A DNA stretch of 29,371 nucleotides from a virus. The position numbers and the translations under genes are program-made. Numbering within the stretch: position 1 is the first letter of the stretch; every line of letters starts with the position of its first letter. The DNA is taken from IMG/VR virus record IMGVR_UViG_3300006805_000114, positions 1-29,371 of that record, one strand, 5' to 3'. Below the pieces are notes generated by a model, which was given only the letters and a program-made list of their open reading frames with translations, did no database searches and was not told the origin of the DNA. Of the stretch, positions 1,289 to 25,981 are shown piece by piece.

Positions 1289-1338
1289 CCGGCAGTCCAG
1301 CGGACGCCGTTCCGGCACCGCTGACTTTTGCGTTAGCA
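1282..1338 (+). other. attC site C
   Basis: R'' is GCATAAC (1282-1288), L'' GTCCAGCGG (1295-1303), L' CCGCTGAC (1318-1325) and R' GTTAGCA (1332-1338). The extra C in L'' gives plus-strand polarity. It separates cassettes 2 and 3. Confidence 0.9.
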
Positions 1339-2019: not shown

Positions 2020-2042
2020 TTTCTTCCTTTCCCACGCCGTCT

Positions 2043-2058
2043 CGCCAGCGCCGACTTT
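2043..2058 (+). repeat. 16-bp cassette repeat, copy 2
   Basis: CGCCAGCGCCGACTTT lies 10 bases left of attC D, at the right end of cassette 3 and upstream of the methyltransferase start. The other three copies sit at the left ends of cassettes 2, 4 and 9, so this copy is differently placed and is probably not coding. Confidence 0.85.
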
Positions 2059-2067
2059 TCAAAAAAC

Positions 2068-2135
2068 TGCTAACACGTCGCTCAACACGGACGCAGGCGA
2101 TAAAGCCGCCTGCACCGGTTAGCTAGGCGTTGGCA
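2068..2135 (+). other. attC site D
   Basis: R'' is TGCTAAC (2068-2074) and R' GTTGGCA (2129-2135). L'' GCTCAAC and L' GGTTAGC differ by the usual extra C. The inner stem is GCAGGC...GCCTGC. R'' matches the start of cassette 3 (GTTAGCA), whereas R' opens cassette 4, so the two arms differ, as expected for neighbouring cassettes of different origin. Confidence 0.93.
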
Positions 2136-2797
2136 GGCAAAAGCATGTCGCCCTGCACCGCCGTCCCGCCAGCGCCGACTTTGTCCTCGAACAGCCGTGG
2201 CTGCGCGTAGGCTTGCTCTATCCTCCGACACGCGATGTCAAAGTATTTGCGCTCGCGCTCGATGCCGACGAACTGCAAACCCATCCGGGCGCAGGCAACT
2301 CCGGTTGTTCCGCTGCCCATGAAGGGGTCTAAAACGGTTTCTGCCTTCGGTGCAAAGCTAAGGCACCACTCAATCAGGCGCAGCGGCTTCTGTGTCGGGT
2401 GCTGCTCTTTGTCGCCATTGCACCGCTCGCAGGCCAAGTGACGGCACGGCATGGCTAAGTTTGTCCAGCACAGTTCAGTCGTGCCGTAGCTCGGCAATCT
2501 AGGTGGCTTCACCCATGACAACCAACCGCGTGTCGGCGGAAGCGGAAAATGATTACCACCCCAAACCATCGCAAACTTCCCCTTCGCAACTATGGGCAGA
2601 ACATCGGGCAACTCGTCGTCCCATTCTTCAGCTTCCCTCGCCACGTTGTCCCGGCTCCATTTGGTTGGCTGTGCCGCGTAGCCAATCCCATACGGCGGGT
2701 CGGTCAGCACCAAATCGACGGGCGGCAGCAGCGGCAGCACTTCGCGGCAGTCGCCGTGCCAGAGTTCGCAATTACCGATTGTCACTTTCTCAGCCAT
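2123..2797 (-). CDS. DPPY-type DNA methyltransferase (N6-adenine or N4-cytosine), cassette 4
   Basis: A 224-residue S-adenosylmethionine-dependent amino-methyltransferase with permuted, beta-class-like order: catalytic motif DPPY at residues 33-36, QHPTQKP at 132-138, then the cofactor-binding motif DPFMGSGTT at 157-165. It probably modifies phage DNA against restriction, next to the C5 enzyme of cassette 3. The target base cannot be read from sequence. The ATG at 2797 is chosen because AAGGAG stands 5 bases before it; GTG 2803 and ATG 2800 are too close. The last 20 or so residues (KVGAGGTAVQGDMLLPANA) come from the cassette-end repeat and attC D. Confidence 0.94.
   Translation of the reverse strand: MAEKVTIGNCELWHGDCREVLPLLPPVDLVLTDPPYGIGYAAQPTKWSRDNVAREAEEWDDELPDVLPIVAKGKFAMVWGGNHFPLPPTRGWLSWVKPPRLPSYGTTELCWTNLAMPCRHLACERCNGDKEQHPTQKPLRLIEWCLSFAPKAETVLDPFMGSGTTGVACARMGLQFVGIERERKYFDIACRRIEQAYAQPRLFEDKVGAGGTAVQGDMLLPANA
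2167..2182 (+). repeat. 16-bp cassette repeat, copy 3
   Basis: CGCCAGCGCCGACTTT lies 32 bases right of attC D, in the 3' end of the cassette 4 methyltransferase gene, where its complement encodes KVGAG. Confidence 0.88.
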
Positions 2798-2822
2798 CAT
2801 CACTCCTTAGTTATGTTTTGCC

Positions 2823-2879
2823 TGCCAACCCGTCGCTCAAGCGGGACGGCTGTCGCCGCCCCTTAGCTCTGCGTTATGA
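2823..2879 (+). other. attC site E
   Basis: R'' is TGCCAAC (2823-2829) and R' GTTATGA (2873-2879). L'' GCTCAAG faces L' CTTAGC. R'' with its flank is the exact complement of the first 14 bases of cassette 4, the longest end match in the array. Confidence 0.92.
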
Positions 2880-3086
2880 GGCGACCTTGATGAGCCACAA
2901 CTCCCAAAACGCAGGGTGCATGCGCCGGTTGCCGGCCTCCCACTCTTGCCACCCGCGCAGAGTGCAATGGATGAGCGCGGCGGCTTCGGTTTGCGAAAGC
3001 CCAGCAGCTTCGCGGGCTGCCCGGACATCGGCTGGAGAAGGGTTGGACGAAGGCCCTTTCGGGCCTCGGTTTGGGTGGTTAGTCAT
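2874..3086 (-). CDS. Xre-type helix-turn-helix protein (cassette 5)
   Basis: A 70-residue putative DNA-binding protein. After a basic, Pro-rich N-terminus comes an HTH segment, VRAAREAAGLSQTEAAALIH, followed by an aromatic-rich helix (GWQEWEAGNRRMHPAFWELW). This pattern recurs in small phage and prophage regulators. The ATG at 3086 overlaps the stop of the upstream gene by 8 bases, so translation is probably coupled. The stop lies in the R' core of attC E. It is likely co-transcribed from the promoter at 3365-3392 and may repress it, though no operator is obvious. Confidence 0.85.
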   Translation of the reverse strand: MTNHPNRGPKGPSSNPSPADVRAAREAAGLSQTEAAALIHCTLRGWQEWEAGNRRMHPAFWELWLIKVAS

Positions 3087-3300
3087 TGGCGGAATACTGA
3101 GCTTCACGCAGCAACTCTTCCGCCCAGCCGGCGAATATCACTCCAGCCGTTTCGTCGCGGCCATTGTGCATTTTGGTTCCGTTTCCGTCGACGGTGACGT
3201 GCACCGCGCCGTCGCTCATGATGCGGACGTTGCGGCCGTTGCGATCCTCGTAACGAGAGGCAACGTAGTTGCGGACGGTGGTCTTTTCGGTCTTGGTCAT
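3079..3300 (-). CDS. Small hypothetical protein, first gene of the cassette 5 pair
   Basis: A 73-residue product starting MTKTEKTTVRNYVASRYEDR. The start at 3300 is supported by GGAG six bases upstream; the frame stays open further upstream, but that part precedes the promoter's start point. The region NVRIMSDGAVHVTVDGNG looks like beta-strands. No family is recognised. It is coupled to the HTH gene, and a toxin-antitoxin-like pair is conceivable but unsupported. Confidence 0.8.
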   Translation of the reverse strand: MTKTEKTTVRNYVASRYEDRNGRNVRIMSDGAVHVTVDGNGTKMHNGRDETAGVIFAGWAEELLREAQYSAND

Positions 3301-3364
3301 TTTTGGCTCCAGCCCCTGTTTTTCCCGAGGCGCGGTGGGTTGCGATGCGCTACCCATGAACCGA

Positions 3365-3392
3365 ATTATATACGCATTGCGTGCAAATGCAA
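3365..3392 (-). promoter_or_regulatory. Sigma-70-type promoter inside cassette 5, leftward
   Basis: On the minus strand TTGCAT (3392-3387), a 16-base spacer and TATAAT (3370-3365) form a near-consensus promoter. The start point would be near 3358, giving a leader of about 58 bases before the ATG at 3300. It fires in the same direction as the phage leftward operon and could also express cassettes further left. Confidence 0.75.
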
Positions 3393-3431
3393 GAACTATT
3401 TGCAACAATTTACAAGGCGGTGGCTTTCGCC

Positions 3432-3498
3432 TCATAACCCGTCGCTCGTGTGGGACTCGCCGATAATGCCGGCGAGCCCCACAGCTTTTGCGTTAGAG
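3432..3498 (+). other. attC site F
   Basis: R'' is TCATAAC (3432-3438) and R' GTTAGAG (3492-3498). L'' GCTCGTG faces L' CACAGC. The central stem contains GCCG/CGGC arms. The R'' flank complements the first 12 bases of cassette 5. Confidence 0.9.
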
Positions 3499-3692
3499 CG
3501 CAGCGGGCACCATGCTGGTATCGCCGGCTTTGGGTCGTTCCGGTCCAGCGTTGCCACAATCGCCCCATGGCTTTTTGTGCACTTCCAGTCAAACACCATC
3601 TCGAACGAATCTGCTGTGTAGTGCCGTTCGGCCTTCATGCAAGGGCACGCCGAACAATCGTCAATCTCTACTGCAAAAACCACTGTCATCAT
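3432..3692 (-). CDS. Cys-containing small protein (cassette 6)
   Basis: An 86-residue product starting MMTVVFAVEIDDCSACPCMK. The N-terminal CSACPC, a later Cys and CPLR resemble small zinc-binding phage proteins, but the family is not identified. GGAGA precedes the two adjacent ATGs (3692 and 3689). The C-terminal third is encoded by attC F read backwards and the stop codon is the complement of the R'' core. Confidence 0.75.
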   Translation of the reverse strand: MMTVVFAVEIDDCSACPCMKAERHYTADSFEMVFDWKCTKSHGAIVATLDRNDPKPAIPAWCPLRSNAKAVGLAGIIGESHTSDGL

Positions 3693-3713
3693 CTTTCTCC
3701 GTAGTTACCCGCG

Positions 3714-3785
3714 CTCTAACCCGTCGTTCCAGGCGCGACCTCACGCGATGATGCCGCGTGAGTCGGCCTGAACTCTGCGTTATGC
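3714..3785 (+). other. attC site G
   Basis: R'' is CTCTAAC (3714-3720) and R' GTTATGC (3779-3785). L'' GTTCCAGGC faces L' GCCTGAAC, a textbook pair with one extra C in L'', and this is the clearest polarity marker in the array. The inner stem is CACGCG...CGCGTG. Confidence 0.95.
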
Positions 3786-3974
3786 GCCCACATACCACGG
3801 GCGCCCGGACAGGATGCAGTCGGTGTCGTCAATCCGCCGTGCCTGCGCTTGCAACGCCTTCCGCAGCGTGTCGGGCATCTGGTTCAACGCCTGCCAGTTC
3901 TTCTCCTGCTTGCAGCCGTCGCACTTCGGTGTGCCGTTGCCGAGGCAGTAGTGAGTAATTCCGTTCTCGCTCAT
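3780..3974 (-). CDS. Small Cys-motif protein (cassette 7)
   Basis: A 64-residue protein starting MSENGITHYCLGNGTPKCDG. C...C-x2-C near the N-terminus suggests a zinc knuckle, and the rest is helical. Its ATG overlaps the stop of the upstream 47-residue gene (ATGA). The stop is in the R' core of attC G. The family is unknown. Confidence 0.8.
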   Translation of the reverse strand: MSENGITHYCLGNGTPKCDGCKQEKNWQALNQMPDTLRKALQAQARRIDDTDCILSGRPWYVGA

Positions 3975-4114
3975 TGCGGCCTTTCCTCTTCGTCAAACGT
4001 CATGTCTTCCGGGTGCGGCACGTCGTCGTGCACAATCACCCCGTCCTTGTCGGCGGGCAGGTGGCGCCCACAAACCACGCACCAGTACCCGCCAGCGCAT
4101 AACAAGTCGTTCAA
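3971..4114 (-). CDS. 47-residue zinc-knuckle protein with a TTG start inside attC H (cassette 7)
   Basis: The frame reads MNDLLCAGGYWCVVCGRHLP and continues ADKDGVIVHDDVPHPEDMTF to an acidic end. WCVVCG and the following VIVHDDVPHP resemble small phage zinc-type proteins. The only plausible start is TTG at 4114, with GGGAG six bases upstream; it overlaps the stop of the cassette 8 gene as TTGA, so translation is coupled across the recombination site. Confidence 0.75.
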   Translation of the reverse strand: MNDLLCAGGYWCVVCGRHLPADKDGVIVHDDVPHPEDMTFDEEERPQ

Positions 4115-4174
4115 GGTTCGCTCCCTTCGGTCGCCGGACCGCCTTCGGCAGCCGCCTTAACTCCAGCGTTAGAA
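4097..4174 (+). other. attC site H
   Basis: R'' is GCATAAC (4097-4103) and R' GTTAGAA (4168-4174). L'' GTTCAAGG and L' CCTTAAC match the canonical aadA-type boxes with the extra C in L''. At 78 bases it is the longest site. Read leftward it carries a stop codon, a ribosome site and a TTG start. Confidence 0.94.
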
Positions 4175-4398
4175 CTCATCTTGTTCCGCCTGTGAATCTC
4201 GCGCTTGATCGTCTTAACGAACCACACCCGCTGATGATGGTGCGGGCCTGACGTGGCCCTGTCAGCCTGAGGGAAATCCCCTCGCTTTATTGCCGCAGCA
4301 AGTGCCGCCGCGCTTTTGAACTCAAACATTGCCATCACGTCCCGTAACGTCATCCCGGACATCGGGTTCACTTCGTTCAACCACGTTGGCATCTGCAT
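4111..4398 (-). CDS. Putative small DNA-binding protein (cassette 8)
   Basis: A 95-residue product with the core MTLRDVMAMFEFKSAAALAA, then a basic stretch ending WFVKTIKREIHRRN. This resembles short winged-helix/AlpA-like or phage activator proteins, but I cannot assign a family. The ribosome site GGAGGG (complement of 4408-4413) lies in attC I, 9 bases from the ATG at 4398. The last 20 or so residues are encoded by attC H. Confidence 0.75.
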   Translation of the reverse strand: MQMPTWLNEVNPMSGMTLRDVMAMFEFKSAAALAAAIKRGDFPQADRATSGPHHHQRVWFVKTIKREIHRRNKMSSNAGVKAAAEGGPATEGSEP

Positions 4399-4401
4399 GT
4401 G

Positions 4402-4473
4402 TTCTAACCCTCCGTTCCAGGCTCGACTGGCCGCGATGAAGCCGCGTCCAGCGGCCTGAACTCCACGTTATGC
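4402..4473 (+). other. attC site I
   Basis: R'' is TTCTAAC (4402-4408) and R' GTTATGC (4467-4473). L'' GTTCCAGGC and L' GCCTGAAC are the same boxes as in site G, so G and I are related. Read leftward, the R''-L'' spacer supplies GGAGGG for the cassette 8 gene. Confidence 0.95.
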
Positions 4474-4829
4474 GGCTCAGTCTCCGTACCGCCAGCGCCG
4501 ACTTTCTCGGCATCCTCTCGGCAGAATTCGCGCCACTGCTCCAGCGCCTCATGCCCAGAGTCCCACCACTTGCTTACCGCTGCTGTGTCCTTGGTGTCGA
4601 GCAGCAGGCATTCCAACTCCAGTGCCAGCCGGTGCGCTGCGGGGAAAACATCACGCATCCCGTCCGCCAACGAATCAACCTTGGCGCGCAGCTTCACGTT
4701 CTCGACTTGCAGTGCCAAGTAGTGCTGCGAAAGCCTGTCCGCATTCGCGTGGCAGGTGGCCGCGTAGTCCTTTGCCGAGGCAGCTTGCGAGCGTATCGCC
4801 AGCAGGTCGGCTCCTGTTATTTGTCCCAT
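4404..4829 (-). CDS. Coiled-coil phage protein (cassette 9)
   Basis: A 141-residue product starting MGQITGADLLAIRSQAASAK. Residues 25-110 are predicted helical, with a coiled-coil segment (YLALQVENVKLRAKVDSLAD), a layout resembling Ead/Ea22-like phage early proteins, though the assignment is tentative. The ATG at 4829 has AAGGA five bases upstream. From about residue 113 the tail KVGAGGTETEPHN and what follows are encoded by the cassette-end repeat and attC I. Confidence 0.85.
   Translation of the reverse strand: MGQITGADLLAIRSQAASAKDYAATCHANADRLSQHYLALQVENVKLRAKVDSLADGMRDVFPAAHRLALELECLLLDTKDTAAVSKWWDSGHEALEQWREFCREDAEKVGAGGTETEPHNVEFRPLDAASSRPVEPGTEG
4467..4506 (+). repeat. 40-bp cassette-end repeat, copy 4
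   Basis: Same element as 922-961 with one mismatch, starting at the R' core of attC I and containing the 16-mer CGCCAGCGCCGACTTT (4490-4505). It shows that cassettes 2 and 9 share a common left end although their genes differ. Confidence 0.9.
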
Positions 4830-4849
4830 CGTCGTCCTTTCGTTGCGCC

Positions 4850-4913
4850 GCCTAACCCGGCGCTCAAGCGGGACCGTCCGCAAGCGGCAGGCCGAGTTAG
4901 CTCTACGTTAGCC
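4850..4913 (+). other. attC site J
   Basis: R'' is GCCTAAC (4850-4856) and R' GTTAGCC (4907-4913). L'' GCTCAA faces L' TTAGC. The flank complements the start of cassette 9 over ten bases with one mismatch. Confidence 0.9.
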
Positions 4914-4949
4914 GGCATGAGTTCTCGCGTCTTCATGCCGGCCGCCAAA

Positions 4950-5252
4950 TCAAGCCGCGAGCTTTTCGCGCAGCACGTAGCCTTCGAGCGCCCAAATCTT
5001 GTCGCGGGCGTTGCTCCTGGCAATCTTGCGGCCCAACTCCACGTCGAAGTTCTCCGGGCTGGCCGCCGCGCTCTCGCCGGTCACGGTGAAGCCGTTGCGC
5101 AGCTTCAGGCAGCACACCGTCAGCGTCGTGCCGGGGAATACGTGGTAGTCCTCGCCGGTAATCACGGCGTCGATCTTCTCGGGCGAGAGGCGCGGCGCGT
5201 TGAGTCCCTTGGCTTGAATTTCGGTTTCAATTGCTTGTTCGTCTTTGCTCAT
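4950..5252 (-). CDS. N4 gp49/Sf6 gene 66-family phage protein (cassette 10)
   Basis: A 100-residue protein with the family hallmark TGEDYHVFPGTTLTVCCL (about 32-49), then RNGFTVTGESA, the segment SPENFDVELGRKIARSNA (65-82), and the C-terminal KIWALEGYVLRE. The family is widespread in phage early regions and its role is unknown. Length is typical. AAGGAA precedes the ATG at 5252. It is the only leftward cassette gene whose stop lies outside an attC (37 bases to the right of site J). This is clear phage cargo in an attC-bounded unit. Confidence 0.93.
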   Translation of the reverse strand: MSKDEQAIETEIQAKGLNAPRLSPEKIDAVITGEDYHVFPGTTLTVCCLKLRNGFTVTGESAAASPENFDVELGRKIARSNARDKIWALEGYVLREKLAA

Positions 5253-15840: not shown

Positions 15841-17137
15841 GGTAGAGCTTCCCGACAAGCTGATTCCTGTATTCACAGGCAAGGCAGACGTCAGGGCGTC
15901 GTGTGGTGGCCGGGGCTCAGGGAAAACGCGGTCATTTGCAAAGATGATTGCAGTACGTGGATACATCTACGGATCACAAGGGATCATCGGGCAGCTTCTT
16001 TGCGCGCGCCAGTTTATGAACTCGCTTGATGATTCAAGCCTTGAAGAGTGCAAGCGGGCGATTGAGGAAGAGCCGTTTCTTGCGGCGTATTACGAGATTG
16101 GCGATAAGTACATCAAGAGCCGAGACGGGCGCATCTGGTTTGCGTTCGCCGGGCTTGATCGGAACATCTCTAGCATTAAATCGAAGGGCCGCATTCTTAT
16201 CTGCTGGGTGGATGAGGCCGAGCCAGTGACTGAGGCCGCGTGGCAGACGTTAGAGCCAACGCTGCGCGAAGAAGGATCAGACTGGAATGCGGAACTGTGG
16301 GTGACATGGAACCCGCTTCGCAAGACCGCGCCAGTGGAAGGCCGGTATCGGTTCTCTAAAGACCCGCTTGTTAAGTTTGTCGAACTCAACTGGAAAGACA
16401 ATCCAAAGTTCCCGGCGAAGCTAGAGCGAAATCGGCTTCGCGACTTGGAAGAGCGCCCCGATCAGTACCCGCACATCTGGGAAGGCGAGTACGCGACCGC
16501 AGTTGCTGGCGCTTATTTTTCACAACAGCTTGTTAAGGCCAAAGAAGAAGGCCGCATCTGTCGTGTTTCGTTCGACCCCATGTTTAGAACAAAGGTCTTT
16601 TGTGACCTTGGTGGGACGGGGGCGAGAGCAGATGCTTTCGCAATGTGGCCGGCTCAGTTCGTCGCAAAAGAGATTCGCACCCGCGACCATTACGAAGTCC
16701 AAGGCCAGCCGCTTTCTGCGCATATACAGTGGTTGATGTCTAAAGGCTATCGACCCGACACAACAGATATTTGGCTTCCCCATGATGGCGGAACAAATGA
16801 CCGGGTGATTGATACGTCGTTCCAAAAAGGATTTCAAGACGCTGGATACACGGTTGAGATTGTTCCAAACCAAGGCAAAGGGGCAGCAAAGCAACGCGTT
16901 GAAGCGGCCCGGCGACGGTTCCCAATGATCTGGTTTGACGCAGAAACAACCGAACCTGGACGAATAGCGCTCGGCTGGTATCACGAAAAGATCGATGATA
17001 TTCGCGGGATCGGGCTTGGCCCTGAGCATGACTGGTCATCTCACTCTGCGGATGCTTTTGGCTTGATGTGCGTGGCGTATCAAGAGCCAGTCCAGTGGGG
17101 CGGCTCCTTGAACTATCCAAGGATGAACAACGCCTGA
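15827..17137 (+). CDS. Terminase large subunit
   Basis: A 436-residue packaging motor. Walker A GGRGSGKT (27-34), Walker B and catalytic Glu ICWVDEAE (125-132), coupling region VTWNP (159-163), nuclease acidic residues at CDLGGTG (259-265), HDGG (319-322) and HSADAFG (406-412). It translocates DNA into the prohead and cuts the concatemer. The start is GTG at 15827, overlapping the small subunit, with GGTGG upstream. Intact and typical length. Confidence 0.95.
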   Translation: METARVELPDKLIPVFTGKADVRASCGGRGSGKTRSFAKMIAVRGYIYGSQGIIGQLLCARQFMNSLDDSSLEECKRAIEEEPFLAAYYEIGDKYIKSRDGRIWFAFAGLDRNISSIKSKGRILICWVDEAEPVTEAAWQTLEPTLREEGSDWNAELWVTWNPLRKTAPVEGRYRFSKDPLVKFVELNWKDNPKFPAKLERNRLRDLEERPDQYPHIWEGEYATAVAGAYFSQQLVKAKEEGRICRVSFDPMFRTKVFCDLGGTGARADAFAMWPAQFVAKEIRTRDHYEVQGQPLSAHIQWLMSKGYRPDTTDIWLPHDGGTNDRVIDTSFQKGFQDAGYTVEIVPNQGKGAAKQRVEAARRRFPMIWFDAETTEPGRIALGWYHEKIDDIRGIGLGPEHDWSSHSADAFGLMCVAYQEPVQWGGSLNYPRMNNA

Positions 17138-17148
17138 CAAACAACCCT

Positions 17149-17168
17149 AACGCCGTGATGGCGCTGGA
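17149..17168 (+). ncRNA. GNRA-type hairpin leader element, portal copy
   Basis: CCTAA followed by CGCC-GTGAT-GGCG (17151-17163) and TGGAGAA. Same layout as the elements at 22729, 23746 and 24741, with a different stem sequence; the ribosome site follows the stem directly. Confidence 0.6.
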
Positions 17169-17180
17169 GAAAGAAACGAC

Positions 17181-19526
17181 ATGACCCGAATGACTGAGGA
17201 CGAGCTGCGCGCTCTGACCGATGGAGAGTTGCGCCAGTCTGTCGGCTATTGGGGCGGCAAGCTCGCAGGGCAGCGGCAGAAGGCCGAGTATTACTACCTC
17301 GGATTGGCTAAGGGTGACCTTTCCCCCCCTGAGATTGAGGGCCGCTCTAAGGTCGTTTCCACCGATGTGCGGAATACCATCGAATCGATGCTTCCGCAGC
17401 TCATGGTTAAGTTCGTCTCCGGTGATACGGTGGTGGAGTTTGAGCCGACGCAGCAGGACGACGAAGAGCGCGCGAAGCTCTGCACGGACTACCTGAATTA
17501 TTTGTTCCTGAAGAGGCAGAACGGCCATGCAATTACCTATGCGTGGTTCAAAGACGCGCTGCTGCAAAAGAACGGAATCATTAAGGTTTGGTGGGACACG
17601 CGAGCCGAAGAAACGCGCGAGGAGTACAAGGGTCTTGATGATGTTGAGCTTGCTCAGATCATGGATGACGAGGAAGTCGAAGTCACAGAACACGACTCCT
17701 ATCCCGACGAGGAAGACCAAGAGCAGCGGCAGGAGGCGATTCAGCACCTGACAGCGCAAGCGCAACAGGCTATCCAGGCCGCGCAGCAGAGCCCGCAGGC
17801 CATGCAGGCGGTTCAACAGATTCAGGCGCAGATACAGCAGATCGAACAGACGCCGCCGAAGTTCTTGCACGACGTGACCTGCAAGCGCTCCAAGAAGGGC
17901 GGAAAGCTCACGGTTGAGAACGTCCCGCCTGAAGAATTCCTGATCACTCGCAACGCAAAGAGTATCGAGACGGCCAGGTTCTGCGCGCATCGTCGCTCCT
18001 TCACGATGTCCGAACTCAAGTCAATGGGCTACGACACGAAGAAGATCGAGCTTTCATCTGACGATTCCGGCGCAGTGATGAATGCAGAGCGTGTCGAACG
18101 TCTTGCATGGGATGACGAATACGCCTATCTGAACGAAGAGCACCAGACCATTGACGAGTCGCAGCGCGTTGTCTGGGTCAGTGAGTGCTACATCCGGGCA
18201 GACTATGACGGCGACGGCATTGCAGAGCTCCGCAAGGTAACCCGCTGCGGAAATGCGATTCTGGATAACGAGGTGGTTGATGTTGCGCCGTTCGTTTCCA
18301 TCTGCCCCATTCCGATGCCGCACAAGTTCTACGGCCTGTCCATTGCGGATGTAGCCGAAGAAGCGCAGCGCATCAAAACCTCGCTCCTCCGTTCCCACCT
18401 TGACCAGCAGTATCTGAACGTAAACGGCCGGATGTACGCGGTCGAAGGGCAGGTTAATCTGGATGACTTGCTGACCTCTCGCCCTGGCGGCGTGGTGCGC
18501 GTCAAACAGCCTAATGCAGCAGGCCCATTGCAGCCGTCCTATGGTGATCCGGCCGGCGTCATGCATTCGCTTGAGTACATGGAGGATTTCCTAGAGAACT
18601 CCACCGGATGGACACGCTATAGCCAGGGTAACGACTCAGGAAGCCTGAACAAGACCGCGACCGGCGTGAACATCATCACGAACCGCTCTGACATGCGGCT
18701 TGATCTGGTGGCGCGCAATTTCGCGGAAGGCTTTGTTTCGCTGTTCCGCATGATGTTGAAGTTGGTCACTCAGCACCAGGACAAGGAAGTCATCGCCAAG
18801 ATTTCTGGTCAATGGGTGCCCGTCGATCCGCGTGAATGGCGCAATCAGTTTGACGTGTCGATTAACGTTGGTCTTGGGACGGGCAACAAAGACCAGCAAG
18901 CCGCGCACCTTATGAACCTGATGCAGGTGCAAGGCAACGCCCTGCAAATCGGCGCAGCGACCCCGGAGAACATCTACAACGCCGCCTGTGAGCTTGCGAA
19001 GCTGAACGGGTTCAAGAACGGCGACAAGTTCTTTAGTGACCCGTCCAAAGCCCCGCAGCAGCAGCACCAGCCAGACCCGGCAATGATGAAGGTTCAGGCG
19101 GACCAGCAAAACAGCCAAGCATCGTTGCAACTGGAAGAGAAGAAGCATCAATGGCAGGCACAGGTAGAGCAGCAGCGCAACCAGATGGAAGCGGAGCGAG
19201 AAGACCGTCACAAGGCGCTAGAGGCGCAACTTGAGCAAATCAAGGTTCAAGCCGAGAACCAGCGCGAAGCACAGCGGCTGGAGTTTGAGCGCTGGAAAAC
19301 GGAATACGAAGGCTCTGTAAAGATCACTCAAGCGCAGATCGCGGCGGACCAGCAGAACAACGCGGCACTGATTCAGGCAGAACAGGCCGCAAATCAAGTC
19401 GTATCGGGTGGTGAGTCGGACCCGAATACCCAAATCCTGCAAACCCTTCAATCCTTGGTTGAGCATCTCGCCCGACCAAAGCAAATCGTTCGCGGGCCTG
19501 ACGGCCGCGCAATAGGAGTCCAGTAA
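17181..19526 (+). CDS. Portal protein
   Basis: A 781-residue portal of the podovirus type (P22/SU10 portal superfamily by layout). A helical N-terminus (RSKVVSTDVRNTIESMLPQL), a central domain with FVSICPIPMPHKFYGLSIAD (about 372-391), the stem region, and NKTATGVNIITNRSDMRLDL (about 491-510). Two low-complexity parts stand out: an acidic then Gln-rich insertion (about 165-232) and a long Gln/Glu coiled coil (about 625-750). It forms the dodecameric DNA gate. GGAG precedes the ATG after a GNRA hairpin. Confidence 0.92.
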   Translation: MTRMTEDELRALTDGELRQSVGYWGGKLAGQRQKAEYYYLGLAKGDLSPPEIEGRSKVVSTDVRNTIESMLPQLMVKFVSGDTVVEFEPTQQDDEERAKLCTDYLNYLFLKRQNGHAITYAWFKDALLQKNGIIKVWWDTRAEETREEYKGLDDVELAQIMDDEEVEVTEHDSYPDEEDQEQRQEAIQHLTAQAQQAIQAAQQSPQAMQAVQQIQAQIQQIEQTPPKFLHDVTCKRSKKGGKLTVENVPPEEFLITRNAKSIETARFCAHRRSFTMSELKSMGYDTKKIELSSDDSGAVMNAERVERLAWDDEYAYLNEEHQTIDESQRVVWVSECYIRADYDGDGIAELRKVTRCGNAILDNEVVDVAPFVSICPIPMPHKFYGLSIADVAEEAQRIKTSLLRSHLDQQYLNVNGRMYAVEGQVNLDDLLTSRPGGVVRVKQPNAAGPLQPSYGDPAGVMHSLEYMEDFLENSTGWTRYSQGNDSGSLNKTATGVNIITNRSDMRLDLVARNFAEGFVSLFRMMLKLVTQHQDKEVIAKISGQWVPVDPREWRNQFDVSINVGLGTGNKDQQAAHLMNLMQVQGNALQIGAATPENIYNAACELAKLNGFKNGDKFFSDPSKAPQQQHQPDPAMMKVQADQQNSQASLQLEEKKHQWQAQVEQQRNQMEAEREDRHKALEAQLEQIKVQAENQREAQRLEFERWKTEYEGSVKITQAQIAADQQNNAALIQAEQAANQVVSGGESDPNTQILQTLQSLVEHLARPKQIVRGPDGRAIGVQ

Positions 19527-19918
19527 TGACCACAGGCTATTCCACCGCTCTGCGAAATGCTCGGCTAGACGCTATCACCACGGCAGTGGGTTCTGCTGGA
19601 AAGCTCCAGATCTATGATGGAACTCGACCCGCTACGGGCGGAACAGCAACTAACAAGCTTGCTGAATTCACGTTAGGGAGTCCCTTTTCTGCGGCGGCTT
19701 CGGGTGGCGGACCACTCAGCCCAACGCTACCGTCAAACGTAACCGCGCTGCTGTCGGGTACGGCGACATGGTTTCGCATCACAACTTCTGGCGGGACCTT
19801 CGTCATTGACGGTTCTGTTGGTACGTCTGGCGCTGATTGCAACCTGAACACGACCACGATTAGCTCAGGCGGAACAGTAAGCATTACATCGTTCTCGATT
19901 GCAACCGGGAACGCCTGA
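19526..19918 (+). CDS. Beta-rich virion protein
   Basis: A 130-residue product starting MTTGYSTALRNARLDAITTA; GKLQIYDGTRPATGG and ATWFRITTSGGTFVIDGSVG form a pattern shared by many phage structural proteins. It is Thr/Ser/Gly-rich and probably all-beta. Its location between portal and scaffold suggests decoration or head-associated use, which is not proven. ATG overlaps the portal stop (TAATG); AGGAG upstream. Confidence 0.8.
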   Translation: MTTGYSTALRNARLDAITTAVGSAGKLQIYDGTRPATGGTATNKLAEFTLGSPFSAAASGGGPLSPTLPSNVTALLSGTATWFRITTSGGTFVIDGSVGTSGADCNLNTTTISSGGTVSITSFSIATGNA

Positions 19919-20157
19919 TGTTCGACCACGAAGACATCGAGTACGGCATGTTTCTCGGCGAAGAGCTTGAACGCCGCATTGCGCGCCAAAGGCGCATCAA
20001 CACGGTCGTGTCCTGGGTGTCTCTCGCGTTGGCCTGTATCGCCGCCCTTGTTTTTTTGGTCTGGCTGCCGCTCGGAGCCTATGCCGACTCCATGCTCCTG
20101 CAACTATCCGGGCGGCTACCGTCGCCCGCACACGTCGGGCCACACCCATGCTGCTGA
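19918..20157 (+). CDS. Small single-pass membrane protein
   Basis: A 79-residue product with a charged N-terminus and one transmembrane helix (VVSWVSLALACIAALVFLVW, about 30-49). TGATG coupling to the previous gene. A holin-like role is possible, but neither neighbour is a lysis gene, so unassigned. Confidence 0.7.
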   Translation: MFDHEDIEYGMFLGEELERRIARQRRINTVVSWVSLALACIAALVFLVWLPLGAYADSMLLQLSGRLPSPAHVGPHPCC

Positions 20158-20540
20158 CCATCACCCAGTTTCGCCAGCGTTTTACGCTTGAGGAGAAACG
20201 CCGCATTTACACCGCCGCCGAGACGGCGGTCGACATCCGCATCTGGCTGGATGACCTCGCCTCGGTAAAGGACTCCGAAGTCGACACCGCAGACCCGGAA
20301 ATGATCGCCGCCATCATGGGGCTGGAGGCCGCCGGCCTGCTGGATGCCGGGCGGACGGCAAATCACATTCTTGGCACCACCGCGATCACGACCAACGGCG
20401 TGTTCTTTGTGGGAGACCGGGTCGCCATAAAGCCGCCGTTCGGGGATGGTGTGACCGCGTGTCCGGTAGAGGGATTTGACGGCGATGTTGTCCTGGTCAA
20501 TGGCGGCGCGTACTCAATGGATTATTTGGAGGCCGTCTAA
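20148..20540 (+). CDS. Hypothetical head-region protein
   Basis: A 130-residue product starting MLLTITQFRQRFTLEEKRRI; helical first half and beta-rich second half (GVFFVGDRVAIKPPFGDGVT). Overlaps the previous gene by 10 bases and the next by 1. No family recognised. Confidence 0.8.
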   Translation: MLLTITQFRQRFTLEEKRRIYTAAETAVDIRIWLDDLASVKDSEVDTADPEMIAAIMGLEAAGLLDAGRTANHILGTTAITTNGVFFVGDRVAIKPPFGDGVTACPVEGFDGDVVLVNGGAYSMDYLEAV

Positions 20541-21352
20541 TGGCAATCTCAACGATGGATCAACTGGTCGCAGCATTGGCGTTAAGCCAAGACCAGAAGC
20601 TATTCTTCCCGGCGTTTTCGGCTACCGCCTCTGCGTGGCACAACTATAACCAAGTCGTGACGGGTTCGATGGGCACGTTTTCCGTCCCTGCGGCGGCTGG
20701 CTCAGGCGGCAAAACCTATAACCAAAGCACAACCAGTACAGGAATCCCAAAATGGTCGGCAGATGGCGCAAAGACGCCTTATATCGGGCGCTGGTCAAAC
20801 ACAGGGACGATAGCGGCAACCGTACATTTATATGATGTGCATTGGGCATGCTCCGGTTTTTCCGGGGCGCTAAACACCGCGCAAACTGTAACCGGATTCT
20901 CTGGAATGCCAGCTCGAAACACGAACGGGGATGGCTGCGAAATCTGGATTGGCTGCTCGGGTGCCATCGGGGCGACGGCCCATAACGTCACGGTTCAATA
21001 CACAAACCAGGCGGGGACTTCTGGGCGGAATACAGTGAGTGTTGCTGGCATCGCGTCAATGCCCAGCGGGCGCATGTATCAACTGGTCTTGCAGTCGGGT
21101 GATACCGGCGTCCAGTCAGTACAGGGGATCACCCTGTCTGCCTCCTCCGGAACGGCGGGCAACCTGTGGGTGCTGGTGATGAGTCGTGCGGCCGCGATCT
21201 CTCAAGTCGTGGGCAGTGTCGGGGTTGTTTCAGATGCTATTTCGCTCGGCCTGCCGGTATTAGCTGACGAGTCCTGCCTGCTCTTCGTCTTGCAGTCGGC
21301 CACATCGGCGGCGGTGACTACGATGGGGCAGCTGTCGATTATTCAGGGGTAA
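20540..21352 (+). CDS. Beta-rich structural protein
   Basis: A 270-residue Ser/Thr/Gly/Ala-rich product. MAISTMDQLVAALALSQDQK, then many short beta-type segments (TVHLYDVHWACSGFSGALNT, MYQLVLQSGDTG). It looks like a phage virion protein, perhaps a cement protein or a component loaded with the head. TAATG overlap with the previous gene. Confidence 0.78.
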   Translation: MAISTMDQLVAALALSQDQKLFFPAFSATASAWHNYNQVVTGSMGTFSVPAAAGSGGKTYNQSTTSTGIPKWSADGAKTPYIGRWSNTGTIAATVHLYDVHWACSGFSGALNTAQTVTGFSGMPARNTNGDGCEIWIGCSGAIGATAHNVTVQYTNQAGTSGRNTVSVAGIASMPSGRMYQLVLQSGDTGVQSVQGITLSASSGTAGNLWVLVMSRAAAISQVVGSVGVVSDAISLGLPVLADESCLLFVLQSATSAAVTTMGQLSIIQG

Positions 21353-21355
21353 GCG

Positions 21356-22366
21356 GTGGCCGGCTACAAGTCCAGGTTTTCCCGCCCGCAGCTCACAAAG
21401 ACCAGCGGCGTTGCTCCGATTGCGGAGGGCTGGTTTTTTGGGGCGGCGGGCGGTGGCGGTGGAACCGTATCAGGATCGGTTGCCTGGACCGAAGCAAACG
21501 ATACGGCGTCACTATCCGGTAGCGTAATTGCTTCGGGTACTGTCGCATGGACTGAGGCGAACGACACCGCAAGCCTGATCGGGTCTGTAATCGCTTCTGG
21601 GTCCATTTCTTGGACAGAAGCCGATGATGTAACCAGCATCTCCGGAACATTCGGCAGTGGCGTATTTGCTTCTGTCGCATGGATAGAAGATGCCGATACG
21701 TCGGCTATTGCCGGTAGCGTTCTAAACCCGGTTTCCGGGGCAATCAACTGGACAGAAGCCAACGACACGGCGAGCCTGTCGGGCGGGGTAACGGCATCCG
21801 GGGCAGTAGCCTGGACAGAGCAAAACGACACAACAAGCATTTCTGGCTCGGTAATTAGCACCATTACAGGGGCGCTCTCGTGGGTTGAGGGTGACGATGT
21901 AACTAACATTTCCGGCGCATCGTTCTCCGCAGCGTCCGGGTCAGTTGCATGGGTAGATCAGGACGATGTGTTCGCGATATATGCGAGCGCGCCAATCGAA
22001 GGCGGGGCGGCCCCTGACTACTCTGTAAAGAAGAAATACGTCGTCAAAGTTGGCGACCGGCTCATGGTGTTCTCTCGCAAAGAGGACGCCCTTGCTGCGA
22101 TACAGAGCGACGCTCCGAAGAAGCAATACCCAGCGAAGAAGGGCAGGGCTTCGCCTTCTGAAGCCAGTCTTGACGCAGTTGCTAAGATTGAACCAGAGGA
22201 GACGATAAGCCTCCCTGAAGTCAAGGCAATGGCGAAGGTGTATGACCATGCCGCCCAATACGAAGCGCTGATCCAGCAGCACAAATATGACGCCCTTCTC
22301 GCGCTGCATCAGATATTGATTGAGCGCGAAGAAGAAGACATCGAACTTCTACTCTTGGCGATGTGA
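21356..22366 (+). CDS. Structural protein with eight tandem beta repeats
   Basis: A 336-residue product starting GTG at 21356. Residues 38-212 contain eight copies of a 21-24 residue repeat with consensus G-x-[VI]-x-W-[TV]-E-x-x-D-x-x-x-[IL]-x-G; the C-terminal third (VKKKYVVKVGDRLMVFSRKE onward) is non-repetitive, basic then acidic and helical. Such repeats are typical of phage fibre or decoration proteins. Ribosome site weak. Confidence 0.8.
   Translation: MAGYKSRFSRPQLTKTSGVAPIAEGWFFGAAGGGGGTVSGSVAWTEANDTASLSGSVIASGTVAWTEANDTASLIGSVIASGSISWTEADDVTSISGTFGSGVFASVAWIEDADTSAIAGSVLNPVSGAINWTEANDTASLSGGVTASGAVAWTEQNDTTSISGSVISTITGALSWVEGDDVTNISGASFSAASGSVAWVDQDDVFAIYASAPIEGGAAPDYSVKKKYVVKVGDRLMVFSRKEDALAAIQSDAPKKQYPAKKGRASPSEASLDAVAKIEPEETISLPEVKAMAKVYDHAAQYEALIQQHKYDALLALHQILIEREEEDIELLLLAM
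21467..21985 (+). repeat. Eight-unit coding tandem repeat
   Basis: DNA encoding the repeated W-T-E-A-[ND]-D-[TV] unit; adjacent copies diverge in codons (TGGACCGAAGCAAAC, TGGACTGAGGCGAAC, TGGACAGAAGCCAAC) while the residues are kept, so the repeats are old or selected at protein level. Confidence 0.85.
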
Positions 22367-22650
22367 TGGAAATCTCCGAACGCATATACAACGGTAACCG
22401 CGCCCGCGAAGTGCTCGATAACGAGTCATTCCAGTGGGCGATCAACGAAATCAAGAACGAGGTGACAGAGCAATGGAAGAACTCACCAGCCCGCGACGAG
22501 GCAGGCCGCGAAAAGTTGTGGATGCTGCTTCAGATGGCGAACAAGCTGGAGCTGGTGCTGAAATCAACACTGGAGACGGGGCAGCTAGCGGAACTAGAAC
22601 TCCGTCACCAGCGGACGCTGTTAGAGCGCGCCAAAAACGCGATATTTTGA
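22366..22650 (+). CDS. Small helical phage protein
   Basis: A 94-residue product starting MEISERIYNGNRAREVLDNE. The WKNSPARDEAGREKLWMLLQ segment is typical of a small protein found near portal/scaffold genes of podoviruses. ATG 22366 overlaps the previous TGA (TGATG); GTG 22363 is an alternative start. Role unknown, perhaps head assembly. Confidence 0.82.
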   Translation: MEISERIYNGNRAREVLDNESFQWAINEIKNEVTEQWKNSPARDEAGREKLWMLLQMANKLELVLKSTLETGQLAELELRHQRTLLERAKNAIF

Positions 22651-22697
22651 TTGCCAATTCCATGATCGCAGGGACTTCATTTCTCATGCGAAAGTAG
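22473..22697 (+). CDS. Possible overlapping gene with an AT-hook-like motif
   Basis: A 74-residue frame starting MEELTSPRRGRPRKVVDAAS and ending RQKRDILIANSMIAGTSFLM. It overlaps 178 bases of the previous gene in another frame, has GAGGTGA nine bases upstream, and extends 47 bases beyond that gene. RGRPRK resembles an AT-hook. It may be genuine or chance. Confidence 0.45.
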   Translation: MEELTSPRRGRPRKVVDAASDGEQAGAGAEINTGDGAASGTRTPSPADAVRARQKRDILIANSMIAGTSFLMRK

Positions 22698-22708
22698 TTT
22701 CAAAGCTA

Positions 22709-22774
22709 GGCATCTAGCTCTCCGCGAACGCTGTGAAGCGCCGCAATTCCCTCTGATGCCGAGAGGGGGAATTC
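22709..22774 (+). ncRNA. Hairpin-rich leader of the scaffold gene
   Basis: A GNRA-type hairpin CGCT-GTGA-AGCG (22729-22740) followed by CCG, then a longer stem AATTCCCTCT (22745-22754) with AGAGGGGGAATT (22762-22773, two unpaired G). The first matches the elements before portal and capsid genes; here the ribosome site does not follow directly. No T-run, so not a typical terminator. The 97 bases between 22697 and 22794 contain no supported gene. Confidence 0.6.
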
Positions 22775-22793
22775 TGACTAGGACACTCCATAA

Positions 22794-23738
22794 ATGGAAT
22801 CCGCACCCCTTGATGTAAATACCGGGGCTGTTGCCCTTGCCGCGCTGTTGGGTGGTGAAGAAGCAAAAGAACCGGAAGCCGCAGAAACCGAAGAGCAACC
22901 GGAAACGGAAGCGCCAGAGGTTGAAGCGGAAGCGACTGAAGACGAGCCGGAAGGCACGGACGAGTCTGCCGACGACGAGGAAACTGTCACCATCGAAGTT
23001 GATGGCAAGCCAGTGACCATGACTAAGGCCGAGCTTGCCGAAGCCTACAAATCCGGGCTCAGGCAGTCGGACTACACCCGCAAGACGATGGAAGCAGCAG
23101 AGACGCGAAAAGCGGCTGATGCCGAAATCCAGAAGGCGCGGGAAGAGCGGGCGACGTTCGCCCAAAAGCTCCAGCAGCAAGAGGCCGTTCTTAACGCTTC
23201 GCTGCAAGAGCAATCGCAAATTAACTGGAACCAGTTGTTAGAAGCCGACCCGGTTGAATACCTGAAGCAGCAGCACCTCTTTCAACAGAGACAAGCCGCG
23301 CTCCAGCAGACGCAACGGGAACAGCAGAGCCTCTACCAACAGGCTCAGGCCGAACAGCAAGCCAATGTGCAGAAGTTCCTTCAAGAGCAGCAGGATCAAC
23401 TCCTCGCCAAGCTCCCGGAATGGAAAGACGAAGGCAAAGCAAAGGCCGAAAAACAAGCAATCCGCGAATTCCTTAAAAGCTCGGGATATTCAGACGATGA
23501 AATCAGCCAGGCGGCTGACCATCGAATGATCGTCATTGCGCGCGAAGCCATGAAATTTCGCGAAACGATGGCGAAAGCAAAAGCCGCTGCCAAGAAAGTT
23601 GAGAACCTTCCTAAAAAGGTTGTTAGCTCTGGTTCCGGCAATTCCCCGAGCGTAGATAAACGCGGTAGCGCATTCCAACGACTCTCCAAGAGCGGAAGCG
23701 TGGAAGACGCGGCAGCGGTATTCGCATCCATCCTTTAA
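22794..23738 (+). CDS. Scaffolding protein
   Basis: A 314-residue protein just before the capsid gene. Very acidic N-terminal quarter (residues 22-65), a Gln/Glu-rich central coiled coil (about 95-210), and a basic helical C-terminus (MAKAKAAAKKVENLPKKVVS) that would contact coat protein. Composition and position are those of phage scaffolds, which guide procapsid assembly and then leave. Ribosome site weak. Confidence 0.85.
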   Translation: MESAPLDVNTGAVALAALLGGEEAKEPEAAETEEQPETEAPEVEAEATEDEPEGTDESADDEETVTIEVDGKPVTMTKAELAEAYKSGLRQSDYTRKTMEAAETRKAADAEIQKAREERATFAQKLQQQEAVLNASLQEQSQINWNQLLEADPVEYLKQQHLFQQRQAALQQTQREQQSLYQQAQAEQQANVQKFLQEQQDQLLAKLPEWKDEGKAKAEKQAIREFLKSSGYSDDEISQAADHRMIVIAREAMKFRETMAKAKAAAKKVENLPKKVVSSGSGNSPSVDKRGSAFQRLSKSGSVEDAAAVFASIL

Positions 23739-23740
23739 AT

Positions 23741-23765
23741 CCTAATGCCGTGAGGCACCGGAGAA
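23741..23765 (+). ncRNA. GNRA hairpin leader element, capsid copy
   Basis: CCTAA, stem TGCC-GTGA-GGCA (23746-23757), then CCGGAGAACGAC and the ATG at 23770. Stem bases differ from the other copies but pairing is kept. Confidence 0.65.
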
Positions 23766-23769
23766 CGAC

Positions 23770-24699
23770 ATGACTGCACCTACCAATACCTTCCTCACGT
23801 CTGCCGCGATTGGCAACCGTGAGGACTTGACTGACACCATTTACCGCATTTCCCCGACCGCTACACCATTCATCTCAATGGCAGCGAAGGGCAAAGCAGC
23901 CCATACCATTCACGAATGGCAAACCCAAGACCTCGCGTCTGCGGTAGCTAACGCGCAGGCCGAAGGTGATAACGCCTCGGCAAAGACCGTTACCCCAACC
24001 GTTCGCCTGCAATCCCGCACGCAGATTTCGACAAAGACCGTGATTGTCTCTGGCACGCAACAAGCCATGAATCCGGCTGGGCGAAAAGACGAAATGGCCT
24101 ATCAGTTGAGCCTTGCCGCGCTGGAACTGCGCCGCGACATGGAATTCGGCCTGTTGCAGAACGGCGCGGGTGCAGCTTCTCCGCGTTCCGTCAAGGGCCT
24201 GCGTATCTGGGTTGGTGACAACGTGGATCCCGGCGCGGGTTATGTTGCCCCGGTCTATACCTCGACCGATGGCACCGTGAATACGGACGGAACCCCGGCC
24301 GCATTCACCGAGGCCCGACTGAAGAATGCGCTGCAAAAGGCATTCACGGCAGGCGGCGACCCTGACACCATCCTGATGTCTCCGGCAGCCAAACAAACCT
24401 TCTCCACCTTCACGGGTAATTCGACCCGTTACGACAAGGGCGAAGACTCCAAGCTGTTCGCGGCCATCGATGTTTATGTGTCTGACTTCGGCGAACTGAA
24501 AGCGGTTCCTTCCCGCTTCCAGCGCACTCGCGACGTGTTCATCCTCCAGTCCGACAAGTGGGCGGTGGCCTATCTGCGCCCCTTCACCACCGTGGAACTG
24601 GCGACCACGGGCGATGCGTCTCAACGTGAGCTGGTGGTCGAATACGCGATTGAGGCCCGTGCCCCGAAAGCGAACGCTGCTGTGTATGACATCACCTAA
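23770..24699 (+). CDS. Major capsid protein (SU10/DUF5309 type)
   Basis: A 309-residue coat protein. TNTFLTSAAIGNREDLTDTI at the N-terminus, TPFISMAAKG, HEWQTQDLA, the spine helix QLSLAALELRRDMEFGLLQN, then DTILMSPAAKQTFSTF and VYVSDFGELKAVPSRFQRTR, the order expected for the SU10 major capsid family (HK97 fold). It follows scaffold and precedes a strong terminator. Expected to be the most expressed late gene. Confidence 0.93.
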   Translation: MTAPTNTFLTSAAIGNREDLTDTIYRISPTATPFISMAAKGKAAHTIHEWQTQDLASAVANAQAEGDNASAKTVTPTVRLQSRTQISTKTVIVSGTQQAMNPAGRKDEMAYQLSLAALELRRDMEFGLLQNGAGAASPRSVKGLRIWVGDNVDPGAGYVAPVYTSTDGTVNTDGTPAAFTEARLKNALQKAFTAGGDPDTILMSPAAKQTFSTFTGNSTRYDKGEDSKLFAAIDVYVSDFGELKAVPSRFQRTRDVFILQSDKWAVAYLRPFTTVELATTGDASQRELVVEYAIEARAPKANAAVYDIT

Positions 24700-24711
24700 G
24701 TAACAAGCCTG

Positions 24712-24735
24712 CGGGGGGCTTCGGCTCCCCGTTTT
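24712..24735 (+). terminator. Terminator after the capsid gene
   Basis: CGGGGGGC-TTCG-GCTCCCCG (24712-24731) with a UUCG loop, then TTTT. It would reduce downstream transcription after the abundant capsid message. Confidence 0.85.
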
Positions 24736-24737
24736 CC

Positions 24738-24760
24738 TAACGTCGCGAGACGCCGGAGAA
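24738..24760 (+). ncRNA. GNRA hairpin leader element, post-capsid copy
   Basis: CTAA, stem CGTC-GCGA-GACG (24741-24752), then CCGGAGAA and the ATG at 24765. The loop is GCGA, a GNRA tetraloop; the stem differs from the other copies. Confidence 0.65.
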
Positions 24761-24764
24761 TTAA

Positions 24765-25076
24765 ATGTCAAACCGATTCGATGATGCGATTACCGTTATC
24801 AAGACGGGCGTTGCTCAAGCCTCTGGGGCCGCTTCTGCTGGAACCACGATACCCGCTGATTTCTCAGGTAATACCCCCAAATTCATCCGTGTTGCTGCAA
24901 CAGCCCCGGCGTGTTTCAAGCTTGGGTTTGGATCGCTGCCAACGGCAACTACGGGCGACCTTCAAGTGCAGCCCGGCGATGCAGTAATTCTCGCTGTTGG
25001 CTATGCCACGCACTTTGCTGTTATTCAAGTTGCTGCGGCAGGTGTTGTCCAGGTTTCTCCGTTGGAGAACTGCTAA
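24765..25076 (+). CDS. Small virion protein downstream of capsid
   Basis: A 103-residue, mostly beta protein: FIRVAATAPACFKLGFGSLP, then VQPGDAVILAVGYATHFAVI. The style is that of small head decoration or stabilising proteins encoded next to coat genes. No family assigned. GGAG upstream, after the hairpin. Confidence 0.8.
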   Translation: MSNRFDDAITVIKTGVAQASGAASAGTTIPADFSGNTPKFIRVAATAPACFKLGFGSLPTATTGDLQVQPGDAVILAVGYATHFAVIQVAAAGVVQVSPLENC

Positions 25077-25369
25077 TGGACGCGCTGGATCTGGAAACAA
25101 AAATTCATCTGCACGATGGAAACATGACGGTCCAGCGCACTCAGGACTGCACGCCAATCCTTGACTATGCGAAGGAGCAGCATCTTTCCGGGGCGCACGG
25201 CACCAGCGAGATGAGGCACGCTGCGTCCATTCCTTTTGTACTGGTTGAGCAGTATTGCAACATCAACAACATCGAGTTCCACGAGTGGTCAAGCAATCCG
25301 GTTCATTTGAAGCGGATGCTGAATGACCCCGATCTAGCCCACTTCCGAATTTGGCCGGGGCGCGTCTAA
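25076..25369 (+). CDS. Hypothetical virion-region protein
   Basis: A 97-residue product starting MDALDLETKIHLHDGNMTVQ. ASIPFVLVEQYCNINNIEFH and HLKRMLNDPDLAHFRIWPGR give it a mixed alpha/beta look common in podovirus head modules. TAATG overlap with the previous gene; next gene starts one base after its stop. Confidence 0.8.
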   Translation: MDALDLETKIHLHDGNMTVQRTQDCTPILDYAKEQHLSGAHGTSEMRHAASIPFVLVEQYCNINNIEFHEWSSNPVHLKRMLNDPDLAHFRIWPGRV

Positions 25370-25981
25370 ATGGCGCTCGCTACCTATTCCGACCTGCAAT
25401 CGTCGATTGCAGCGTGGCTGCATCGCTCTGATCTGACCTCGGTTATCCCCGACTTCATCACGATTGCGGAAAAACGCATTGCGGGCGATCTGGTTGCGCG
25501 TCTGATGGATACGGTAGTGACCATTTCTACCGTTGCCACACAGGACTACATTCCTGCCCCGTCTGACCTGTTGAACATCCGTTCAATCACGGTCAAGTCA
25601 AGCCCGAATCAGGTGCTTGATTACCTGACGCCTGACCAATTCAACACGCAGTACATCTATGCCGATGCCGGTACGCCACGGGCTTACACAGTCATCGGAA
25701 CAAACATCTATCTGGCCCCAATCCCCGATGACATTTATTCGGTGGAGGTGAGCTATCAGGCCAGCATTCCCGCGCTTTCATTGTCGGGCACGAATTGGCT
25801 GATGACAAATTACCCGCACGTCTATCTGTTTGCCTCTCTCTGCGCCTCGGTGATGTACACCAAGGACACCTCTGCGATTCCGGCATGGGAGCAGGCCTAT
25901 AAAGAGGCGATTGAATCCGTCAATGCTAATGACTGGTATTCAGGCTCAACAATGGTCATTCGTACGGACGTGCGGAAATGA
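25370..25981 (+). CDS. Head-tail adaptor protein
   Basis: A 203-residue protein beginning MALATYSDLQSSIAAWLHRS, with FITIAEKRIAGDL, the typical start of podovirus adaptor (gp4-like) proteins, and NYPHVYLFASLCASVMYTKD near the end. It would bind below the portal. Order capsid-adaptor-gp10-like fits P22-type tail assembly. Confidence 0.85.
   Translation: MALATYSDLQSSIAAWLHRSDLTSVIPDFITIAEKRIAGDLVARLMDTVVTISTVATQDYIPAPSDLLNIRSITVKSSPNQVLDYLTPDQFNTQYIYADAGTPRAYTVIGTNIYLAPIPDDIYSVEVSYQASIPALSLSGTNWLMTNYPHVYLFASLCASVMYTKDTSAIPAWEQAYKEAIESVNANDWYSGSTMVIRTDVRK

Follow-up and report, generated by a model that had tools for sequence, protein, structure and literature searches.

Could a short hairpin that recurs before the structural genes of a phage be an RNA element of its virion messages, and what would it do there? 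The window, which is the whole stretch of 29,371 bases that was analysed, is a virus record, and Pfam matches to its portal and capsid proteins (Table 1) and its adaptor protein (E = 8.8e-35) identify an SU10-type phage. The original prediction counted four copies of one form in this phage, at the portal, scaffold and capsid genes and after the capsid gene, and proposed that they are a true RNA element of the messages for virion proteins.

The hairpin in the window

Complete copies were found before the portal gene, the capsid gene and a gene for a 103-amino acid protein (Table 1). All three have the ribosome site right after the stem, as had been predicted, with GGAG starting 2 nt further on. 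The portal copy differs in having CTGGAGAA and a loop of 5 nt, GTGA plus T. The copy described as lying after the capsid gene was placed correctly, but it stands before the gene for the 103-amino acid protein in the same way as the other copies stand before theirs. The fourth member does not share the form. The hairpin in the leader of the scaffold gene is a degenerate copy at best, having GCGAA in place of CTAA and CCGCAATT in place of CCGGAGAA. It lies 53 nt before the ATG at 22794 with other predicted stems in between, and the covariance model recognises the hairpin alone (model positions 11-25 only, E = 0.044).

Table 1. Positions of the hairpin copies and of the genes behind them in the window
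Feature	Position	Strand	Remarks
CCTAA 5' flank, portal copy	17146..17150	+	columns conserved in 77-sequence alignment
Hairpin CGCC[GTGAT]GGCG, portal copy, 5-nt loop	17151..17163	+	covariance model E = 5e-11, training member
CTGGAG (2-nt spacer and Shine-Dalgarno GGAG), portal copy	17164..17169	+	
Portal protein (SU10_portal), ATG 17181	17181..19526	+	PF23899, E = 1.7e-211
Degenerate hairpin CGCT[GTGA]AGCG, scaffold-gene leader	22729..22740	+	without CTAA and without adjacent Shine-Dalgarno
Scaffold-type gene	22794..23738	+	position as phrog_3927 scaffold gene in a hairpin-bearing relative
CCTAA 5' flank, capsid copy	23741..23745	+	
Hairpin TGCC[GTGA]GGCA, capsid copy	23746..23757	+	covariance model E = 3e-10, training member
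CCGGAG (spacer and Shine-Dalgarno), capsid copy	23758..23763	+	
Major capsid protein (SU10_MCP), ATG 23770	23770..24699	+	PF17236, E = 2.3e-91
CCTAA 5' flank, third full copy	24736..24740	+	just 3' of GGGGGGCTTCGGCTCCCC hairpin and its T run
Hairpin CGTC[GCGA]GACG, third full copy	24741..24752	+	covariance model E = 1.6e-10, training member
CCGGAG (spacer and Shine-Dalgarno), third full copy	24753..24758	+	
Gene for 103-amino acid protein after capsid, ATG 24765	24765..25076	+	

A pattern covering the capsid copy and the third copy matches twice in the window, and 100 dinucleotide shuffles give no match. The covariance model was trained on 77 sequences including all three full copies of the window, so independent evidence comes from other phages. 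The scaffold-type gene gave no match in a Pfam scan, and the gene for the 103-amino acid protein none in PHROG and Pfam scans. In size and position the latter corresponds to the family that most often follows the hairpin, with 47 of the 199 raw instances.

Other repeated or structured sequences are present in the window. A stem-loop of 10 bp (AATTCCCTCT...AGAGGGGGAATT) lies at 22745-22773, between the degenerate hairpin and the scaffold start codon. Imperfect 63-nt repeats (VAWTEANDTASLSGSV) at 21465-21960 make up the gene at 21356-22366, which probably encodes a tail or fibre-type repeat protein. Repeated imperfect palindromes at 860-5000 (e.g. 866-932, 3715-3786 and 4403-4474) look like integron attC sites between cassette-like genes on the minus strand, two of which encode DNA methyltransferases (1333-2019 and 2123-2803, minus strand). 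The three palindromes that were tested give strong folds as single-stranded DNA (z = -2.8, -3.7 and -2.8), and a search for attC sites by the strict core-site rule, covering the left part of the window, yielded no pair. Clusters of attC sites in phages have already been reported (PMC9892861).

Conservation of pairing in other phages

A search by capsid protein similarity brought in 47 related loci, many of which have the hairpin before capsid, portal, scaffold and post-capsid genes. When IMG/VR was searched with a pattern in which the flanks were fixed and two stem pairs were free (YY..RR, 16 combinations), at least 119 stretches matched. Pairing was counted with a pattern that makes no demand on pairing (TAACGYYGNGARRCGCYGGAG) and that gave 134 distinct contexts. 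The two free pairs are Watson-Crick pairs in 131 of these (CC..GG 58, CT..AG 44, TC..GA 24 and TT..AA 5), with G-U in two and a mismatch in one. The outer pair over IMG/VR is C-G in at least 119 stretches, G-C in seven, C.C in none and G.G in two, and the G.G matches were judged from their context to be chance.

In the alignment of 77 copies, changes on both sides are found in three of the four pairs, where 41 such cells compare with 7.7 in shuffles, and the signal collapses once the register is slid; this alignment was gathered with a pairing filter, and the fair test lies in the unfiltered counts from the 134 contexts and in the collection scans. On a tree of 88 capsid proteins, for which many of the loci had been found by the motif itself, the stem type at the orthologous SU10-type capsid site has switched at least 13 times with the pairing kept, and the presence or absence of the element changes 11 times. 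Some close relatives lack the element at the same gene, which can therefore do without it. Judged from the compared sequences, the stem is demonstrably maintained by compensatory change.

The original prediction had called for a covariance search across phages and had made its case depend on further covarying examples upstream of structural genes. Such examples were found in both related and unrelated phages, and there is good support for the proposal that virion messages carry an RNA element here. Aberrant versions precede the capsid gene at four loci (L247, L245, L125 and L041), with an AAGA loop, a shifted stem or three pairs only; they are useful natural variants.

Structure of the element

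The consensus reads CYUAA, a 4-bp stem, a GHGA loop, CYGGAG, five to seven nucleotides of any kind and AUG. In a set of 177 copies, for which the AA of the upstream flank was demanded by the filter, C is found at -5 in 156, a pyrimidine at -4 in 164 and U at -3 in 156. The base directly after the stem is C in all copies but one (176/177), and the second stem pair is G-C in each of the 77 aligned copies. GGAG starts at exactly +3, i.e. 2 nt after the stem, in 156 of the 177 copies, and the distance from the stem to the start codon varies between 8 and 16 nt (mostly 11-12). This combination of a fixed GGAG spacing and a varying start distance means that the hairpin and the Shine-Dalgarno sequence are one unit, and to judge from the spacing the position of the start codon is set by the usual rule.

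Because the collection patterns contain GGAG, the sets gathered with them over-represent copies with a Shine-Dalgarno sequence, and the control for this used loci mostly fetched by capsid protein similarity. In these loci a TAA-hairpin is followed by a Shine-Dalgarno sequence 51 times, compared with four times in reversed sequence. Among the 26 control TAA-hairpins without a Shine-Dalgarno sequence, only two entries, identical in sequence, resemble the motif.

The hairpin is a GNRA tetraloop, with a G-N-R-A loop on a stem kept by covariation, and is limited to GHGA: the loop is GAGA in 64 of the 177 copies, GTGA in 51, GCGA in 50 and carries a fifth base in 12. Every scored copy lies in the gene sense that makes the loop GNRA. 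Loops of the GNAA and UUCG types are also very stable, yet with the same flanks neither was found in IMG/VR (0 and 0). This absence disfavours a stabiliser that works by mechanical means alone and favours recognition of GNGA.

RNAalifold predicts two further pairs outside the stem, C-5/G+4 and Y-4/G+3, over a UAA/CY internal loop. They are compatible with 94-98% of the copies, and the invariant GG precludes a covariation test. Pairing further out showed no covariation across the copies. An extended pairing of the upstream pyrimidines with GGAGAA, present in the fold of one window copy, was discarded, as it shows no covariation across copies. In an RNA thermometer a temperature-labile stem holds the Shine-Dalgarno sequence; the GG-CY pairing considered for this role has a probability of about 0.2 and shows no covariation, the GG being invariant. 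A UUCG terminator as a constant upstream neighbour was rejected, as it was seen in only three of 41 copies. Tandem hairpins 24-42 nt apart stand before a single gene at three sites (L058 3942-4013, L119 909-971 and G016:C1 7711-7768).

Genes and genomes with the element

The genes downstream of 199 raw instances were grouped by protein and scanned against PHROG and Pfam. Four types of head protein are found behind the hairpin, namely the SU10 type, the P22 type (PF11651), the Mu gpT type (PF10124) and phrog_6671. The other genes encode portal, scaffold, ejection, major tail, minor tail and tail spike proteins as well as unknown families, with the small terminase as a possible addition. Whole contigs mostly have one to five copies, and in 15 phage contigs the element stands at 41 of the 1244 ORF starts that were scored. 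As far as gene families reveal it, the element is shown to be used on late structural genes of mutually unrelated phages.

Bacterial genomes gave a different picture from a host-wide signal: the pattern matched 11 stretches in 84,980 genomes and was present in 1/300, 2/201 and 1/195 genomes of three host groups, and host-wide use was rejected because of this rarity. Phage genes follow the hairpin in Variovorax, a second genome of the same family, Undibacterium and Thiobacillaceae, and one further match is in a metagenome-assembled genome labelled Hyphomicrobiales. Nitrosomonas and another proteobacterium have integrase-bearing integrated elements with the hairpin before a small gene. The element is thus almost absent from bacterial genomes except for integrated elements, and the hosts that were identified are mostly Betaproteobacteria. 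Two of the collected loci, L067 (753-6517) and L064, are integrated elements with a tyrosine integrase and the hairpin before a small gene; L067 also encodes a PriCT_2/AAA_25 primase. Both are possibly phage satellites.

Comparison with known elements

Rfam release 15 gave no match at the gathering score over the window and none at E <= 1 over positions 16900-25500. A BLAST search of 50,697 GenBank phages with two consensus sequences gave nothing beyond short, partial matches, most of which fall within annotated genes. No description of the element was found in the literature searched, and an earlier description elsewhere is possible.

Hairpins at ribosome-binding sites are already familiar from phages such as T4 and MS2. 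The intercistronic CUUCGG hairpins of T4 are short, very stable tetraloops reused between phage genes, and the present element is likewise a short tetraloop hairpin reused at phage genes. However, its loops are GAGA, GTGA and GCGA instead of C(UUCG)G, and it is tied to the Shine-Dalgarno sequence at a fixed distance, unlike the T4 hairpins. The MS2-type operator between coat and replicase is also a phage hairpin at a ribosome-binding site with a specific loop, but it has one site per genome, the coat protein as ligand and the ribosome site inside the hairpin. Here several genes are involved, the conserved stem ends 2 nt before GGAG, and the one outer helix that could form, CY-GG, is weak. The boxB hairpins of lambda and P22 have a similar short stem and a GNRA-like loop, which in some of them contains a fifth base. 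They belong to nut sites, which occur once or twice per genome together with an upstream boxA, whereas the present copies stand at the Shine-Dalgarno sequence of each gene and have no conserved boxA, as positions upstream of -5 carry little information.

Stabilisers of the ompA type resemble the element in that a hairpin lies 5' of a single-stranded Shine-Dalgarno sequence, but require no sequence-specific loop. The sites of CsrA/RsmA have GGA in the hairpin loop, while here GGA is outside and the loop is GNGA, and the stem is followed by CYGGAG and not by the U run that follows the GC stem of an intrinsic terminator. The CCUAA...GG arrangement presumably resembles the GAAA tetraloop receptor, but without the 3' strand of the receptor. 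The phage-borne structured RNAs manA, wcaG and c4, which stand in published lists of RNA candidates, were also found by comparison, and manA and wcaG accompany metabolic genes; their structures and genes differ from those described here (PMC2864571). A single covarying module of hairpin and Shine-Dalgarno sequence that serves many virion genes in unrelated phages is apparently new.

Possible functions

The element is probably a structured ribosome-binding site, an RNA module that acts in cis from the leaders of virion genes. Its 4-bp hairpin with a GNGA-type GNRA loop, set between the conserved UAA and the conserved C, is tied by the 2-nt spacer to GGAG, with the start codon usually 5-7 nt on, and would act in the mRNA at translation initiation, which the fixed spacing favours. 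The strictness of the loop favours recognition over mere stability, and the loop may be read by the ribosome or by a protein. In local folding the hairpin forms (mean pairing probability 0.88), and the Shine-Dalgarno sequence is unpaired with a probability of 0.31, compared with 0.37 when the hairpin bases are shuffled. A simple insulator that keeps the site open is unsupported, since folding gives the Shine-Dalgarno sequence no extra accessibility. The hairpin probably keeps it half-closed, with CY paired to GG around the UAA/CY internal loop. The outcome would be virion proteins made strongly and in step late in infection, and both raising and gating of translation are compatible with this.

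A translational operator overlaps with the structured ribosome-binding site as its protein-read, gated version and would be like a small phage regulon. In such an operator an RNA-binding protein of the phage or the host would sit on the GNGA hairpin, cover the Shine-Dalgarno sequence and repress or activate the set of virion genes. The strict loop, the invariant second pair and the nearly invariant C after the stem exceed what stability needs, several copies per genome stand on different genes, and the integrated elements in Nitrosomonas and the other proteobacterium have the hairpin before a small gene. Against this, no protein family was found that is common to all hairpin-bearing genomes and missing from hairpin-less relatives in a search at the blastp level, which short, fast-evolving RNA-binding peptides would escape, and the operator is best regarded as a tentative explanation. 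Processing or stabilisation of the mRNA is less likely still. Stem-loops at the 5' end can protect messages, and cleavage in the single-stranded CYUAA, which is unpaired beside the hairpin, would place a protective hairpin at the new 5' end; one window copy also directly follows a terminator-like GC stem with a T run. However, any stable tetraloop should serve this purpose, which does not agree with the missing GNAA and UUCG versions, and protection does not need a fixed 2-nt spacing to the Shine-Dalgarno sequence.

A signal at the DNA level, either a partly palindromic operator or a promoter for a phage polymerase, would account for a near-palindromic and gene-proximal sequence. It is nevertheless improbable given that the arms change in a compensatory way, that the asymmetric loop is constant and always GNRA in the mRNA sense, and that the distance to the Shine-Dalgarno sequence is fixed, as DNA sites conserve sequence rather than pairing. 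The poorest candidate, with hardly any likelihood, is translational coupling, in which UAA is the stop codon of the upstream gene and the hairpin times re-initiation. Of 164 copies, 21 have the TAA of the motif as the upstream stop and 24 have a stop that ends 7 nt before the stem. The distance ranges from 0 to more than 200 nt, but most copies have the upstream stop further off than these, and UAA is conserved anyway. These variable distances refute coupling as a general function.

It is conceivable, though rather doubtful, that the hairpins form a regulon in which one trans-acting reader recognises GNGA hairpins tied to the Shine-Dalgarno sequence and switches on the synthesis of virion proteins as a set across unrelated phages. 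This speculative reading would have as its reader either a factor supplied by these proteobacterial hosts or a small RNA-binding protein of the phage, and would imply, just as tentatively, that phages with four unrelated head types, and possibly the integrated elements, have adopted the same RNA address tag.

Significance

Because the promoters of uncultivated phages are unknown, the control of their late genes usually cannot be seen. The hairpin is an RNA tag that can be searched for with a covariance model and that marks virion genes across unrelated phages. With such a tag, virion genes of unknown families would be easier to annotate, among them the one for the protein of about 100 amino acids after the capsid, and the element could become a compact part for translation control. 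It also raises a testable question for the biology of these phages, namely what reads a GNGA hairpin 2 nt before the Shine-Dalgarno sequence.
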